Source: Oceanococcus sp. HetDA_MAG_MS8 (lineage in GTDB: Bacteria > Pseudomonadota > Gammaproteobacteria > Nevskiales > Oceanococcaceae). Taken from it: DNA of 64,000 bases. The stretch lies in the NCBI GenBank assembly GCA_019192445.1, contig JAHCMK010000004.1, positions 1 through 64,000 on the forward strand, written 5' to 3'. Numbering within the stretch: position 1 is the first letter of the stretch; each line of letters begins with the position of its first letter. The notes beneath the pieces were generated by a model. It did no database searches and was not told where the DNA came from. It was given only the letters and a program-made list of their open reading frames with translations. Both the position numbers and the translations under genes were made by a program. This document shows positions 49,984 to 55,433 of this stretch, in pieces.

Positions 49984-50090
49984 AGCCTTGGCACGGCGCA
50001 CAGACGCTGGCGATAGCTTTGCATACTCTTGAGGGGCTCCCAGAGGACCGGGAGCGCCATACAAATCTGGATACACACGAGGACCGTGTA

Positions 50091-51347
50091 ATGAAAGGAC
50101 TTCTCCGCTTAACGGCTGGCGCCACCCTGTTGGGCGCAAGCACTCTGGCCCAAGCGGGCCTGTTTAGCCAAAGTGAACCCGAGATGTACATCGTGCAGCT
50201 CGAGCCCAGCGCACTCGTCGGCCAAACCATTTCCGAGGCAACGGCCGCCGTGCTAGGCCTGGTTGGCGCTGAAGGCGCCGTTTTCGAGTACGACACCGTG
50301 CTGACCGGTTTCGCGGCTCCCCTGACCGAGCGCCAAGTCCGCTTGTTGAAGCGTCTGCCTTTAGTCAGCGCTATTGAAAAAGATTCCATCGTTCAGGCTA
50401 CGGGCACGCAAAATAACCCGATCTACGGCCTGGATCGCATTGATGAGTACAACCGCCCTACCGATGGTGTGTACCAATACCCAGCCAGTGCTGGCGCTGG
50501 CGTTCACGTTTACATCGTGGACACAGGCATCAACGCGGATCACGTCGAGTTCACGGGTCGCATTGGCCAAGGTCAAAACTTCGTCAGCGACGGACCTGGA
50601 GGCCTCGCCCGGCTGCTACCGCTGCCGGTACCTCTTCCGCTCGATATCTTTGGCCTGCTCGGTGGCGGCGTTGATCCCGAAGCTTGGGATGATTGCAATG
50701 GCCACGGCACCCACGTTGCCAGCACCGCTGGTGGTACCCAATGGGGTGTAGCCAAACAAGCAACACTGCATGCGGTTCGTGTGTTGGGCTGCTCTGGCTC
50801 TGGCTCTACTTCGGGCGTCATCGCCGGCATGGAATGGGTCGCAGAAAATGCGGAGAAACCCGCCGTGGCCAACATGAGCTTAGGTGGCGGGTCTTCTGCA
50901 GCTTCTGACGCTGCTGTACGCGCCCTTTACAATGCTGGCGTGGTTCCAGTTGTTGCCGCTGGTAACGACAACGCAGACGCCTGCAACAGCTCCCCAGGTC
51001 GTGAGCCACTGGCGTTCAACGTCGTTTCCTCGGATAGTCAGGACCGTGAGTCTAGTTTCTCTAACCACGGCACCTGCACCGACATCATCGCTCCTGGTTC
51101 CAGCATTGTCGCAGCCAGCCACACCAGCAACACCGGCTCTGCAACCTTGAGCGGCACCTCCATGGCAGCTCCGCATGTCGCCGGCGCCGCGGCCTTGATT
51201 CTGGGCGAAACGCCCAGCCTGTCCGTAGCCGACGTCTACTCCACGCTGCTATCGAATGCGACTCCAGGCAAGATTGCCCTGAGCCCAGCCAACGTCGGAA
51301 CACCGAATTTGCTGCTGAACGTCTTCCCCGAAGGCGCAAAAGACTAA
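50091..51347 (+). CDS. secreted subtilisin-family (S8, proteinase K-like) protease
   Basis: 418 residues from ATG 50091, preceded by ACGAGGAC. A signal peptide ends near 22 (TLAQA), followed by an I9 inhibitor propeptide (about 30-103) and an S8 catalytic domain. The triad is D144 (YIVDTGIN), H205 (NGHGTHVA) and S357 (GTSMAAPH). An unusual proline/leucine-rich insertion (about 170-194: [16 protein letters not shown]) sits between the Asp and His motifs, where proteinase K has a short loop. Cysteines at 202, 234, 298 and 329 could form disulfides. It is likely exported and released as an extracellular protease. It is divergent from the GacA-like gene, consistent with GacA-type control of exoenzymes. 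Confidence 0.92.
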
Positions 51348-51419: not shown

Positions 51420-52149
51420 ATGCGCTTCAAAGCACAGAGCCCTTTTGCTCTCCGGCGTTAAGACTGCCGGCCAAACCTAGAAACATGTGCGTTTAGTTCG
51501 AAACGCCTCTGTAAAAACAGCAACACGAACGCGCTAGCACGGGCAAAGCCAACGACGTATCGACTTGCCACGCCCATGGACAAATGCGAATCAGCCGCAT
51601 GACCTAGATGTGTTTTCCCATCGAAGATCGTGATTCACTTTTTCCAGGCTGTGCGTGCGCGACTAGCCTTTTGGAAGACTGCAAGCGCTGTAACCCGCAA
51701 TTCACACAGGCCAACAGGCGCTTTGGAAAATTACCTAGCATTGACACGCTAACGCTGAGGCCGGCGGCCGGAACCTCACCGTCCTGTTAACAACGGACAA
51801 GGCGTTTAGTTTTACTTCTCACCGCCTGCGACCCATCATTTAGGGCGAGTCAGCTTTGTGCTACGCGCTAAGCACATACTGCGAAAACACGGGCCTCACC
51901 CCCTTGGCATTCCTCTGGGACAAAGCTTAAGAAACAGCGAGGTCGCGGCATACATCCACGCTTAGCGAAGGCCTCAGATGGCGTGTCGCGATCGAACTAT
52001 GATGCTCGGGACGCGCGGTTTGGGGGTCCGGACTCCGCTTAGCACTTTGCGCCTAAAGCGCGCTAGGGCACGGACTGTCGCGAGACATAAATGGAGTCTA
52101 GAGTGCGCCTACGTTTGCTCCGAGTAACAGCAAAGCCTCCGGCTCTCAA
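51420..52149. other. 730-bp region without a supported gene
   Basis: Lies between two outward-facing terminators. The longest open frame (51608-51790, 60 codons) has no ribosome site and no protein-like composition. No repeat, tRNA or clear promoter is recognised. A small RNA cannot be excluded. Confidence 0.5.
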
Positions 52150-52180
52150 TAAAAAAGCCCCACCGTTTCCGGCAGGGCTT
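52150..52180 (-). terminator. rho-independent terminator of TonB-receptor gene
   Basis: On the minus strand AGCCCTGCC pairs (two G-U) with GGTGGGGCT around a 6-base loop, followed by six T (A at 52151-52156 on the plus strand). It is about 77 bp past the stop. Confidence 0.82.
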
Positions 52181-52256
52181 TCTCAGGACTTAAGCTGCTG
52201 ACTGCTGCTTAGCGCGGCCTGTTCACAGCCACTTTTTCAGCCAGTACTAAGTACGA

Positions 52257-55200
52257 TCAGTTGAAGTCTAAGCGCGTGCTCAGGTACAGCTGACGGCCGC
52301 CTATGCGATAGGTATCCGTATCTGTTTGAGCGTTGAACTCACCAACAATGAACTCAGGCTGCTCATCAAACAGGTTATTGATACCGAAAGACACCATCGC
52401 CGTGCTGTTGAAGAAGTAACGGAATGCCGTGTCTACATAGTAGGTCGCCGAAACATCACGGGAGAGATCAGCCGTCAGCTCTTCGGTCACTCCACCGATG
52501 TAATCGACGTTCAGCGATGCCCCGTACTTCTCGAAGCCCCAATCCACAATGGCGTTGGCGCGATACTCCGGATAGATACCGCGAGTCAGGGCTTCCACAT
52601 CATTTACGAACTGCCCTACGGCATCGAATGGCGTAGTCACCGTGGATTCACGTTCCTCTAACCGCGTCACCATCACCCGGGAGTTAAAGCTACCCACGCG
52701 AGTATTCAGGACGTGATTAAAGGCAAAGTCGATACCCTTGGCGGTTTCTTTACCAATGTTCTGCTGCAAGGCAACAACCGCGTTGATCTGTCCATCCGCA
52801 AATCGCGTGATGTTGGAGCAAGCCGCGTCGTTCAGCTCTAGAACACAGCGCTCCACAATTGAGCGCTCGGAGATCGCAGCAATAGCGTCCTCCAGCTCAA
52901 TGGAGAAGTAATCCAGAGTGAATGAGCCTCCGGGGATAAAGTCCGGATCCCACACCACGCCGATGTTGAAGGTATCACCCTGCTCCGGTGCAAGATCAGG
53001 ATTACCACCAATCCGACCACGCGGCTGCGCGTTGGACTGGAAGTACCCACCCTCGGGAACGCCGGTTTGCGTACATTGAGCTTGCTGCTCTGGCGTCAGA
53101 GTGTTGTACACGTCGTTGTCTGGAGCATCAATATTCCCAGTTGAGCAGGGATCAACGTACAACGGGAAGTTATCAGACTGCGGAGAGAACAACTCTAGAA
53201 TCGACGGTTCGCGGAACACCTCAGCGAAGCTGGCCCGAACAACCACAGACTCGATGGGCTGCCATAGCGCATTCACCTGGAACACGTTATTGCTGCCAAC
53301 GGTGGAGTAGTCGTCTTGGCGGAAACCAAAGCCAAGCTCCAATGCCTGGGCAAAAGGAGCGCCGCTAAGCAGCGGAGCCGAAATTTCGATGGAAATCGAA
53401 TCTACATCGTAACCACCGGCCAAGCCTTCACCGGCATTACCGGTGACCGCTTCTGTTGCTTTACCGGAATCTGGGGTGTAGCTAAAGAACTCCTCCCGAG
53501 TTTCCAATGCAATAGCGGCGGTGAGCTCGCCACCAGGAAGAGGCATGATGGGGCCTGCAAAGGACAGGTGACCAAAGTTACGCGTGCCCTGGAAGAAGTC
53601 CACCAAATCCGCCTGAACGTAGTTCAGCATTTCGGGCGTAATCGTGCCCACATTGCCGAACAGGTTCAGAGGTACGCAATTCGCGATAGGAGCATCTGGT
53701 GTGCCGCAGGTAATGGTGCCGTCGGCTGCTTGGAAGGATGGGCCTAAAGCATTTTGCAAACGGGATCCAACGAATTGACCACCGTCAACATCGGTTTGCT
53801 GGAAGCGGCCATATTGGTAAAAGGCCTCCCAGTCCCACATATCTACGAACCCGAGCTCTCCTCGCGCACCAACCGTAATCTGATTCAGTGAACGCTCCTG
53901 GGTGAAGGAACGGCCTCCGACCTCAGCAATCCGACGACGAATGTCGCCAAGGTCTACCCCAAACGGATTGTAAAAGTTGGATGCGGGAATCGTACCGGGA
54001 GGATCAAACAGGGAGAAATATGGCAGTGGTGCCAAAGCCTGATCCGAGGTACGACGTGCATAGCGAGCTTCGGCGTAGACCTCAACCCCATTCTCCAGGA
54101 GATAATCGCCCGAGAAAAAGGCGTTATTCCGGATGAAGGGTGTCTGCAGGAAGTTAACAGGGCCGAAGTTGAAAGCATCCTCGGGCACGCGAGTCCGCGG
54201 CTGGCCATCTTCGCCAATAGTATAAATACCGGCTTCGAAGGGGCCACCTTCAGGCACGTTAAAGAAACCATTCAACTGAGCCGAGCTGCCGCCCACCACG
54301 ATGCCAACGTCGCCATCGCCATCAATATCACGGTTGAAGGCGCCAAAACCTGCAGCAGCAACGTCATCTAAGTCTGTGAATGACAATGCATCTCGCAGAT
54401 ATCCCTCGCTTACGTTGCCTTGGTAAAACTCATTCTGGCGGTTGTACTCAAAACCAGCCGTGAATCGGCCCTTTGCACTGGCCCCGCCAATCACGATGGA
54501 GGCGCGATAGTTTTCACCATCGGTGCCCTCGAGGTTGGGGTCACCAACTTCAGCCGCCGCAGGGTTGGTTTCAAGGCCTGGATACGTACTCGCAAAGGCG
54601 TTAATTTCTACGCCTTGGTGATCACGTCGGGTGATGATGTTCACCACCCCAGCTACCGCGTCAGCACCATAAATAGCAGACGCCCCCTGCGGGAGAATTT
54701 CAATTTTCTCAACAATTGCCAGGGGAATGGTCGAGAAATCGTTACCTGAAATATCGCGACGACCGTTGATCAACACCAGCGTGCGCTGACGCCCAACACC
54801 ACGTAAGTCGACAGAGGTTGAGCCATCACCGCCGTTGTTCGTACGACTGGAAAGCGGCGAACCTGTCACCACAGGAAGCTGACGGATCACGTCACCGAGA
54901 TCCGCCAAGCCGATCCGGTCGATATCAGCACGGCTGACCTCAATCACCGGAGAAGCGCCCTCAATATCCGTTCTCCGCAAGCGAGAGCCGGTGACTGAAA
55001 TGCGTGATAACGACGTCAACTGGTCTGTTGATTCTTCTTCGGCCGGTGCTGCAGGAGCAGCGGCGACAGGCGCGGCTTCTACTGGAGCAGCCGGAGCCGC
55101 CGGCTGTGCCACTTCTTCTGGCTCCGGTGCAACCGGTGCCACTGGCTCCGGCGTGGCTTCTACGACCTCTAAATATTTGGTTTTGAGATATCCCACATCG

Positions 55201-55433
55201 CCATCTGCAGTTTGCAGCATGGCAAATTCGCCTTCGTAACCTAAGATTTGAAGCTCAGACCCTTGCGGCAGCGTTTTCACAACGGCCGTATTCAGGTCGG
55301 GGGCTTCGCGAAGATTAATGCGAATCTTGGTGGTACCGGTGTCAGCATAAACAGCGCTGGATAAACCTAGCGCCATGCCAACCGCAATAGGAATCGTCAG
55401 CTTTCGCAGCTGACCCTGCCTTCTCTCGGTCAT
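52257..55433 (-). CDS. TonB-dependent receptor with N-terminal SH3b domain
   Basis: 1058 residues. The signal peptide ends near 30 (SAVYA). A bacterial SH3 domain (SH3_3, about 35-91: IRINLREAPDLNTAVVKTL ... VGYLKTKYLEV) follows, then a Pro/Ala/Glu linker (92-134). The receptor itself starts with a TonB-box-like RISVTGSR and plug (about 141-270: DIEGASPVIEV, GASAIYGADAVAGVVNI) and ends in a 22-strand-type barrel (LYLSTRLDFN). Other Oar/CirA-like receptors carry an STN or carboxypeptidase-like domain at this position, not SH3b. An acidic loop at D369-D375 (DIDGDGD) could bind calcium. It stands alone; the ligand is unknown. GGGAG precedes the ATG. Confidence 0.9.
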   Translation of the reverse strand: MTERRQGQLRKLTIPIAVGMALGLSSAVYADTGTTKIRINLREAPDLNTAVVKTLPQGSELQILGYEGEFAMLQTADGDVGYLKTKYLEVVEATPEPVAPVAPEPEEVAQPAAPAAPVEAAPVAAAPAAPAEEESTDQLTSLSRISVTGSRLRRTDIEGASPVIEVSRADIDRIGLADLGDVIRQLPVVTGSPLSSRTNNGGDGSTSVDLRGVGRQRTLVLINGRRDISGNDFSTIPLAIVEKIEILPQGASAIYGADAVAGVVNIITRRDHQGVEINAFASTYPGLETNPAAAEVGDPNLEGTDGENYRASIVIGGASAKGRFTAGFEYNRQNEFYQGNVSEGYLRDALSFTDLDDVAAAGFGAFNRDIDGDGDVGIVVGGSSAQLNGFFNVPEGGPFEAGIYTIGEDGQPRTRVPEDAFNFGPVNFLQTPFIRNNAFFSGDYLLENGVEVYAEARYARRTSDQALAPLPYFSLFDPPGTIPASNFYNPFGVDLGDIRRRIAEVGGRSFTQERSLNQITVGARGELGFVDMWDWEAFYQYGRFQQTDVDGGQFVGSRLQNALGPSFQAADGTITCGTPDAPIANCVPLNLFGNVGTITPEMLNYVQADLVDFFQGTRNFGHLSFAGPIMPLPGGELTAAIALETREEFFSYTPDSGKATEAVTGNAGEGLAGGYDVDSISIEISAPLLSGAPFAQALELGFGFRQDDYSTVGSNNVFQVNALWQPIESVVVRASFAEVFREPSILELFSPQSDNFPLYVDPCSTGNIDAPDNDVYNTLTPEQQAQCTQTGVPEGGYFQSNAQPRGRIGGNPDLAPEQGDTFNIGVVWDPDFIPGGSFTLDYFSIELEDAIAAISERSIVERCVLELNDAACSNITRFADGQINAVVALQQNIGKETAKGIDFAFNHVLNTRVGSFNSRVMVTRLEERESTVTTPFDAVGQFVNDVEALTRGIYPEYRANAIVDWGFEKYGASLNVDYIGGVTEELTADLSRDVSATYYVDTAFRYFFNSTAMVSFGINNLFDEQPEFIVGEFNAQTDTDTYRIGGRQLYLSTRLDFN

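Follow-up and report, generated by a model that had tools for sequence, protein, structure and literature searches.

An SH3b domain ahead of four different TonB-dependent receptor barrels: a candidate wall-docking cap in the Oceanococcaceae

Introduction

Several kinds of outer-membrane barrel carry an additional periplasmic domain. In OmpA and OprF, an eight-strand barrel is joined to a C-terminal, OmpA-like domain that binds peptidoglycan, and TonB-dependent transducers of the FecA/FpvA type have an STN domain N-terminal of the TonB box and act with a FecR partner. FpvA of Pseudomonas also occurs as allelic types, strongly different alleles of one receptor family at one locus. In diderm Firmicutes, OmpM combines an SLH domain, a stalk and a porin barrel; its peptidoglycan binding has been measured, and tethering is linked to uptake (PMC10628300). 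The receptor described here is encoded in a 64,000-nucleotide stretch of Oceanococcus sp. HetDA_MAG_MS8 (hereafter the window; contig JAHCMK010000004.1, positions 1 to 64,000) and carries an SH3b domain and a Pro/Ala linker ahead of a TonB-dependent plug and barrel. NCBI assigns Oceanococcus to the Oceanococcaceae. Each of the four genomes searched from the window's family encodes one such receptor, and the four plug-barrels occupy four separate places in a receptor tree.

A TonB-dependent receptor with an added N-terminal domain is a known kind of protein; the unusual part is the evolutionary pattern, through which the function of the SH3b domain becomes testable. OmpM and this receptor are alike in uniting a wall-binding domain, an extended periplasmic spacer and an outer-membrane nutrient channel in one chain, wall binding being presumptive for the SH3b receptor, but OmpM does so with an SLH domain, a coiled-coil stalk and a trimeric porin, whereas the receptor has an SH3b domain, a disordered Pro/Ala linker and a TonB-dependent plug-barrel (PMC10628300). 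An outer-membrane barrel with a periplasmic domain on a spacer, as in OmpA- and OmpM-like tethers, is present in the SH3b receptor. The likeness to OmpA and OprF lies in the barrel with its flexible periplasmic tether domain, and a similar barrel recurs in a folded SH3b small-barrel protein described below; their wall-binding domain, however, is C-terminal and of another family, whereas the SH3b domain is N-terminal. The FecA/FpvA transducers share an extra globular domain N-terminal of the TonB box, but theirs is an STN domain with a FecR partner, neither of which was found at the receptor locus. Like the FpvA allelic types, the receptor occupies a single locus with strongly different alleles in close relatives; unlike them, its barrels fall in separate tree places behind one cap. 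In YgiM-type proteins, too, the signal peptide is followed by an N-terminal SH3 domain in the periplasm (by reading), and the window SH3b matches their model TIGR04211 (SH3 and anchor) weakly (24.7 bits, below the cut-off of 65), but they continue into a coiled coil and a membrane anchor (by reading) instead of an outer-membrane barrel.

Architecture and predicted structure of the receptor

The receptor gene is an intact open reading frame of 1058 amino acids (window 52257-55433, minus strand), with the domain order signal peptide, SH3b, Pro/Ala linker, TonB-box-like motif, plug and barrel:

55344..55433, minus strand: predicted Sec signal peptide, residues 1-30, ending in SSAVYA before D (sequence reading, boundary by eye)
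55164..55328, minus strand: SH3b (SH3_3) domain, residues about 36-90 (Pfam, model strands, conserved in 4/4 family genomes)
55005..55163, minus strand: Pro/Ala/Glu linker, residues 91-143 (composition, low confidence in the structure model)
54984..55004, minus strand: TonB-box-like motif RISVTGS, residues 144-150 (alignment A4)
54645..54956, minus strand: plug domain, residues 160-263 (Pfam PF07715)
52260..54644, minus strand: TonB-dependent beta-barrel, residues 264-1058 (Pfam PF00593, model, structural matches)

A Pfam scan of the protein placed SH3_3 (PF08239) at residues 39-89 with E 8.9e-8 and 32.7 bits (cut-off 27), Plug (PF07715) at residues 160-263 with E 5.6e-18, and the barrel family TonB_dep_Rec (PF00593) at residues 505-1021 with E 6.8e-27; the genome-level SH3b match lies at window positions 55167-55319. 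Together with the structure model, these matches bear out the initial annotation of the DNA, which had read an SH3b domain and a Pro/Ala linker ahead of a TonB receptor, and its domain boundary of residues 31-95 was fair. The 53-residue linker consists of 21% Pro and 30% Ala, includes ten acidic residues and contains no Lys or Arg. RISVTGS fits the TonB box of the receptor family and would act as one. In alignment A4 all 27 receptors share VTGS unchanged; 23 of its rows were chosen by such a motif and cut to start three residues before it.

An AlphaFold2 model of the receptor was made from this 27-row alignment, which includes 23 of the 38 receptors without SH3b that are compared below. Its mean pLDDT (predicted local distance difference test) is 77 and the barrel is mostly confident. 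Five SH3-like strands appear between residues 36 and 84, with a block pLDDT of 68-80 at residues 51-90 and only about 45 at residues 31-50. The stretch 92-150 (block pLDDT 27-37) and the signal peptide (24-29) are disordered. The best Foldseek matches of the whole model are PfeA, PirA, FepA, Cir and BtuB. That the SH3b domain is periplasmic follows from the signal peptide and the side of the plug. The linkers of the four SH3b receptors have 52-67 residues, a contour of about 156-234 Å by length alone. The distance from outer membrane to cell wall is roughly 70-100 Å; because the contour exceeds it, the linker is, judged by length, able to span the gap.

Distribution of the fusion

The order was searched with an SH3b+linker alignment (85 genomes, own included). 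All four family genomes, G000 (the window genome), G001, G002 and G003, gave receptor-sized open frames with E 1.6e-60 to 1.7e-69; G002 and G003 contain additional short SH3b genes. G000 and G001 are congeners, as are G002 and G003. The three other receptors have the same domain order and SH3_3 matches of 35.5, 40.2 and 40.2 bits, all above the Pfam cut-off. Because three further genomes encode the same order, chance or an assembly artefact is very unlikely as the source of the fusion, and with four genomes sharing the architecture we have excluded the sequencing or assembly error that the initial annotation had allowed for.

The other 81 genomes of the order yielded no SH3b receptor. Six of them gave eight matches in frames above 500 amino acids; reading the six frames above 520 amino acids (in G078, G069, G022, G023, G033 and G029) revealed no receptor, and the remaining two (509 and 511 amino acids, with internal stops) are too short for one. 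The frames of G078, G069 and G022 matched through Pro/Ala stretches and read as RNase E-like, FimV-like and ABC-F-like, and that of G029 is another SH3-repeat protein. Those of G023 and G033 are YgiM-like proteins, SH3b with coiled coil and anchor, lying in long open frames, as are the frames found across the class. There, a sample of 369 genomes (own included, at most ten candidates scored per genome) contributed, among the matches listed, six frames above 520 amino acids besides the window (G392, G341 twice, G238, G150 and G381), none of them a receptor. In a phylum sample of 398 genomes searched with SH3b+linker+plug (at most six candidates scored per genome), none of the matches listed except the window's starts before position 93 of 292. 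The SH3b alignment at E 1e-8 retrieved 16 other genomes from a phylum sample, all with frames of 209-293 amino acids. Among plasmids, none of 1276 matching records covers 80% of SH3b+linker+plug. A fusion with a distant SH3b could have escaped every one of these searches. A related-locus search with the whole protein returned nothing, and one with the N-terminal alignment returned two loci, both from family members.

Related receptors lack the domain. None of the 37 with a visible N-terminus, out of 38, carries an SH3b (SH3b profile at or below 0 bits); the remaining one, in G013, has lost its N-terminus at a contig end. Many have just a short stretch ahead of the TonB-box-like motif. The initial annotation placed the SH3b domain rightly at the N-terminus but was slightly off in having it replace the usual N-terminal domain: with 0/37 relatives carrying an SH3b, it is an addition between signal peptide and TonB-box-like motif. 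Its further claim, that no standard receptor class has this layout, held in so far as the receptor stays below the cut-off of every one of the 25 NCBIfam models listed, out of 26 matched, and a literature search, with most subscription journals outside its coverage, found no paper on an SH3b-TonB receptor fusion, one hit dealing with FeoA/FeoB and two papers found for Oceanococcus with TonB being unrelated; whether the fusion is common in databases was tested in part, by the genome searches.

Different plug-barrels behind the SH3b domain

A plug-barrel tree was built from 42 receptors, four with and 38 without SH3b, over 822 columns by a quick method with SH-aLRT (Shimodaira-Hasegawa-like approximate likelihood ratio test) support and no bootstrap. 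A receptor entered as a row if it contained a V[TS]G[STN] motif followed by 650 or more residues, together with a plug motif, in a frame above 700 amino acids; rows whose first 400 residues were identical were merged, and fetched regions failing these criteria were dropped, which left the 42. The SH3b labels were verified afterwards by profile for 4/4 carriers and 37/38 non-carriers. The four SH3b plug-barrels stand in four separate places, with four label changes, all forced by branches starred in the tree. The approximately unbiased (AU) test rejects a single clade of all four (p 1e-44), a G000+G001 pair (p 3e-6) and a G002+G003 pair (p 3e-6). The groups submitted to it (SH3b carriers, same genus) were set by tree-independent criteria, and the tests were run after the tree had been seen.

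The barrel of G001 shares a starred group, six members in all, with five receptors from two other families, one of them that of G013; it is 58% identical to its nearest relative (G013's), 57% to G006's and 54-58% to the two other families. That of G002 and three receptors lacking SH3b make up another starred group, at 54% identity. The G003 barrel sits on a long branch with no close kin, 29% identical at best. Searched at E 1e-80, the other 84 order genomes contained no match to it (locus L043), nor did the 369 class genomes at E 1e-70, the latter a search that shows little, with at most two candidates scored per genome and no positive control. The window barrel is also on a long branch; by path it lies closest to receptors without SH3b from its own genome, genus and order (support 86), with 34% identity at best.

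Between close relatives the SH3b-receptor plug-barrels are only 33% (G000/G001) and 32% (G002/G003) identical. Control pairs of non-SH3b receptors reach 77% and 73% for G000/G001 and 97% for G002/G003, as ordinary orthologues would, and gltB of G000/G001 reaches 84% over 900 codons. The locus is exceptional by comparison with these three control receptor pairs.

Allele exchange at the locus

Synteny holds between the G002 and G003 loci, where two blastn pieces, one of 8.6 kb (85% identity) and one of 7.4 kb (96%), flank a dissimilar part, the latter extending into the SH3b-linker coding stretch. The 300 bp upstream of the gene and its first 29 bases are identical and are followed by an abrupt drop in identity, as expected of allele exchange; the exchanged unit begins near codon 10. 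A gene near the receptor, read as MoxR, has a synonymous divergence (dS) of 0.06 between the two genomes. The corresponding SH3b values are dS 1.45 and, for nonsynonymous divergence (dN), 0.063, a dN/dS of about 0.04, with 55 of 62 amino acids identical (89%); the linker is 75% identical. In this one species pair the SH3b domain is under purifying selection. A breakpoint in the linker with a swap of the plug-barrel alone, as drawn from blastn, is ruled out by the codon comparison, the SH3b itself having diverged at synonymous sites. We read the locus as one where nearly the whole gene was probably replaced, by way of the shared upstream flank, by an allele from another lineage, one in which purifying selection has preserved the SH3b domain and the barrel has a different origin.

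In the genus of the window, both receptors lie near genes read as dgt and gltB, and a PKD/Ig-domain gene stands between dgt and the receptor in G001. In G002, a transglutaminase-like/TPR gene (L042:8655-9836) separates two receptors; the corresponding interval in G003 measures about 0.27 kb and lacks the gene.

Related modules on small barrels

Six more genes in five order genomes (G020 twice, G004, G049, G052 and G081) encode, by reading, a signal peptide and an SH3b domain, then a Pro-rich linker that leads into some 180 C-terminal residues. G002, a genome of the Oceanococcus genus group, has its own version of such a small-barrel protein with two SH3b domains, related to the G049 protein across the second SH3b, linker and barrel (E 2e-33) and more weakly to a G020 protein. 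Genes with this SH3b, Pro-rich linker and small-barrel layout, one of them with two SH3b domains, are:

L045:4004-4993
L046:2711-3709(-)
L047:2793-3797(-)
L048:2063-3070(-)
L049:3254-4255
L204:843-2105

A Pfam scan of five genes from four genomes found SH3_3 above cut-off in 5/5 and three sub-threshold OMP_b-brl matches. In the structure model made for one of the proteins (mean pLDDT 70), a disordered linker joins an SH3-like domain to a small barrel. This barrel matches OmpA, OmpW and OprF structurally, with a best E of 3.2e-6 and a template modelling (TM) score of 0.78 to the OprF barrel (target length).

An SH3b tree of 57 rows over 61 columns, each row having at least 50 residues and a domain E below 1e-3, places four receptor and six small-barrel domains on one side of a branch and the 47 others, many YgiM-sized, on the opposite side (SH-aLRT 92). 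The G081 gene (L056) entered this tree and stood outside the Pfam scan, alignment A5 and the fold; the L204 gene stood outside the tree and the fold. Across nine aligned SH3b domains, I-N-x-R, four glycines and L-K-x-x-Y-L are invariant. At least two of the small-barrel genes, L047 and L048, adjoin long repetitive reading frames (L047:4061-6997, L048:3386-5953).

A candidate docking cap and its alternatives

We put at about even the prospect that the SH3b domain acts as a cap by which outer-membrane barrels are docked to peptidoglycan, presumably through binding it, with receptor alleles being exchanged at the locus. After cleavage of the signal peptide, the mature receptor would start with the SH3b domain on its 52-67-residue Pro/Ala-rich linker, ahead of the TonB-box-like motif. 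The domain might then bind the peptidoglycan sacculus, most likely its stem peptides, and the receptor would thereby be anchored or concentrated near the wall with its TonB box still within reach of TonB. At the single locus per genome, the module would be kept as lineages exchange receptor alleles that differ in their barrels and new fusions form, and receptors for different cargo would thus gain the same docking cap. We infer peptidoglycan to be the ligand and docking the benefit, and the exchange route likewise. The sacculus is the most economical ligand because the common denominator of both protein types is an outer-membrane barrel, not TonB or a cargo. More tentatively, this SH3b subfamily may provide outer-membrane barrels within the order with an N-terminal docking cap that is interchangeable, one version standing before OmpA/OmpW-type barrels and another before whichever TonB receptor occupies a dedicated, recombining locus.

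Several observations weigh against this reading. The fusion is carried by only four genomes, two of them metagenome-assembled. The SH3b domains of the window and G001 are just 59% identical (38/64; dS not computable), below the values for gltB (84%) and for the two non-SH3b receptor pairs (73%, 77%) of these genomes. Long branches leave the kin and exact places of the window and G003 barrels unsure, and the tree was made by a quick method that lacks bootstrap. The SH3b tree is suggestive only, with 61 columns and rows gathered with receptor-N-terminus models. Two of the five scanned small-barrel genes have no Pfam barrel match even at E 1, and the folded small-barrel model has a predicted TM score (pTM) of 0.50. 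Some related receptors (L014, L015, L017, L114 and L116) have long acidic or Pro/Ala N-terminal extensions without SH3b, and because relatives have such extensions of their own, the linker alone is not diagnostic. SH3_3 domains, moreover, bind varied ligands.

Ordinary domain accretion is another explanation: a YgiM-type SH3b with its signal peptide would have been fused and tolerated, and the barrel differences would reflect the usual turnover of receptors by gene transfer. Across the class, short SH3b proteins that resemble YgiM in size and by reading are widespread, and the low conservation of the SH3b pair in the window's genus relative to other genes there suits a tolerated passenger. The dN/dS between G002 and G003 and the retention of the domain before four barrels argue instead for a kept function, and the three other receptor pairs compared show no turnover; we regard accretion as unlikely. 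A kept function could also lie in contact with TonB, for example its Pro-rich periplasmic region, or with ExbD, raising the local TonB concentration whatever barrel is attached. The position of the SH3b domain on a flexible tether ahead of the TonB-box-like motif fits such a partner, as do its presence in receptors of 4/4 family genomes and its independence of barrel type, which suits a partner common to all TonB receptors. Related SH3b-linker modules occur, however, on small barrels as well. Barrels of the OmpA/OmpW type need no TonB, and bacterial SH3b domains are not known as general binders of Pro-rich peptides; a TonB or ExbD partner thus seems rather improbable to us.

The initial annotation had named two roles, tethering to the wall from the periplasmic side and reception of a signal from it. 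Tethering is favoured as the most likely role, supported by the related SH3b-linker modules on small outer-membrane barrels. Signalling has fared worse. A domain that works like the STN of FecA/FpvA, reporting receptor occupancy to an anti-sigma factor, would hold the same N-terminal position before the TonB box, but the domain is an SH3_3 without an STN match at E 0.01 in the Pfam scan, and the single FecR match in the genome falls on contig C6 and not on C4, where the receptor lies. No FecR partner is present at the locus (FecI was not searched for), and no sigma/anti-sigma pair was noticed beside the four receptors, whose neighbours were mostly named by reading, not scanned. We consider such signalling very improbable, although a partner encoded elsewhere is conceivable.

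A docking function, if true, would give the Gammaproteobacteria a tether between outer membrane and wall whose wall-binding end is N-terminal, coupled to cargo import and separable from the choice of cargo. TonB has to pull on its receptors across the periplasm, and their placement with respect to the wall is little understood; a candidate wall-docking domain built into a receptor makes this placement testable. One conserved cap before four barrels is also a natural experiment that divides the function of a periplasmic module from cargo specificity. The pattern suggests a selective force under which the exposed barrel is replaced and the hidden cap spared; phage, bacteriocins or changing nutrients are speculative candidates.

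Neighbouring genes and other features

A promoter scan at the receptor found no consensus site, and a terminator scan gave 8 sites versus 4.5 expected, none at the expected place. One further feature was noted by eye and is absent from the list of the consensus scan:

52148..52184, minus strand: possible intrinsic terminator downstream of the receptor

Convergent to the receptor, window positions 50019-51347 encode a subtilase (Peptidase_S8 with an I9 propeptide, Pfam); in the 20-kb regions of the other three SH3b receptors no such gene was noticed. Apart from the receptor gene, a single SH3_3 gene was found in the genome of the window: L050:2567-3271(-), which encodes a Sel1/TPR-like repeat protein (repeat type by reading) with a C-terminal SH3b domain.

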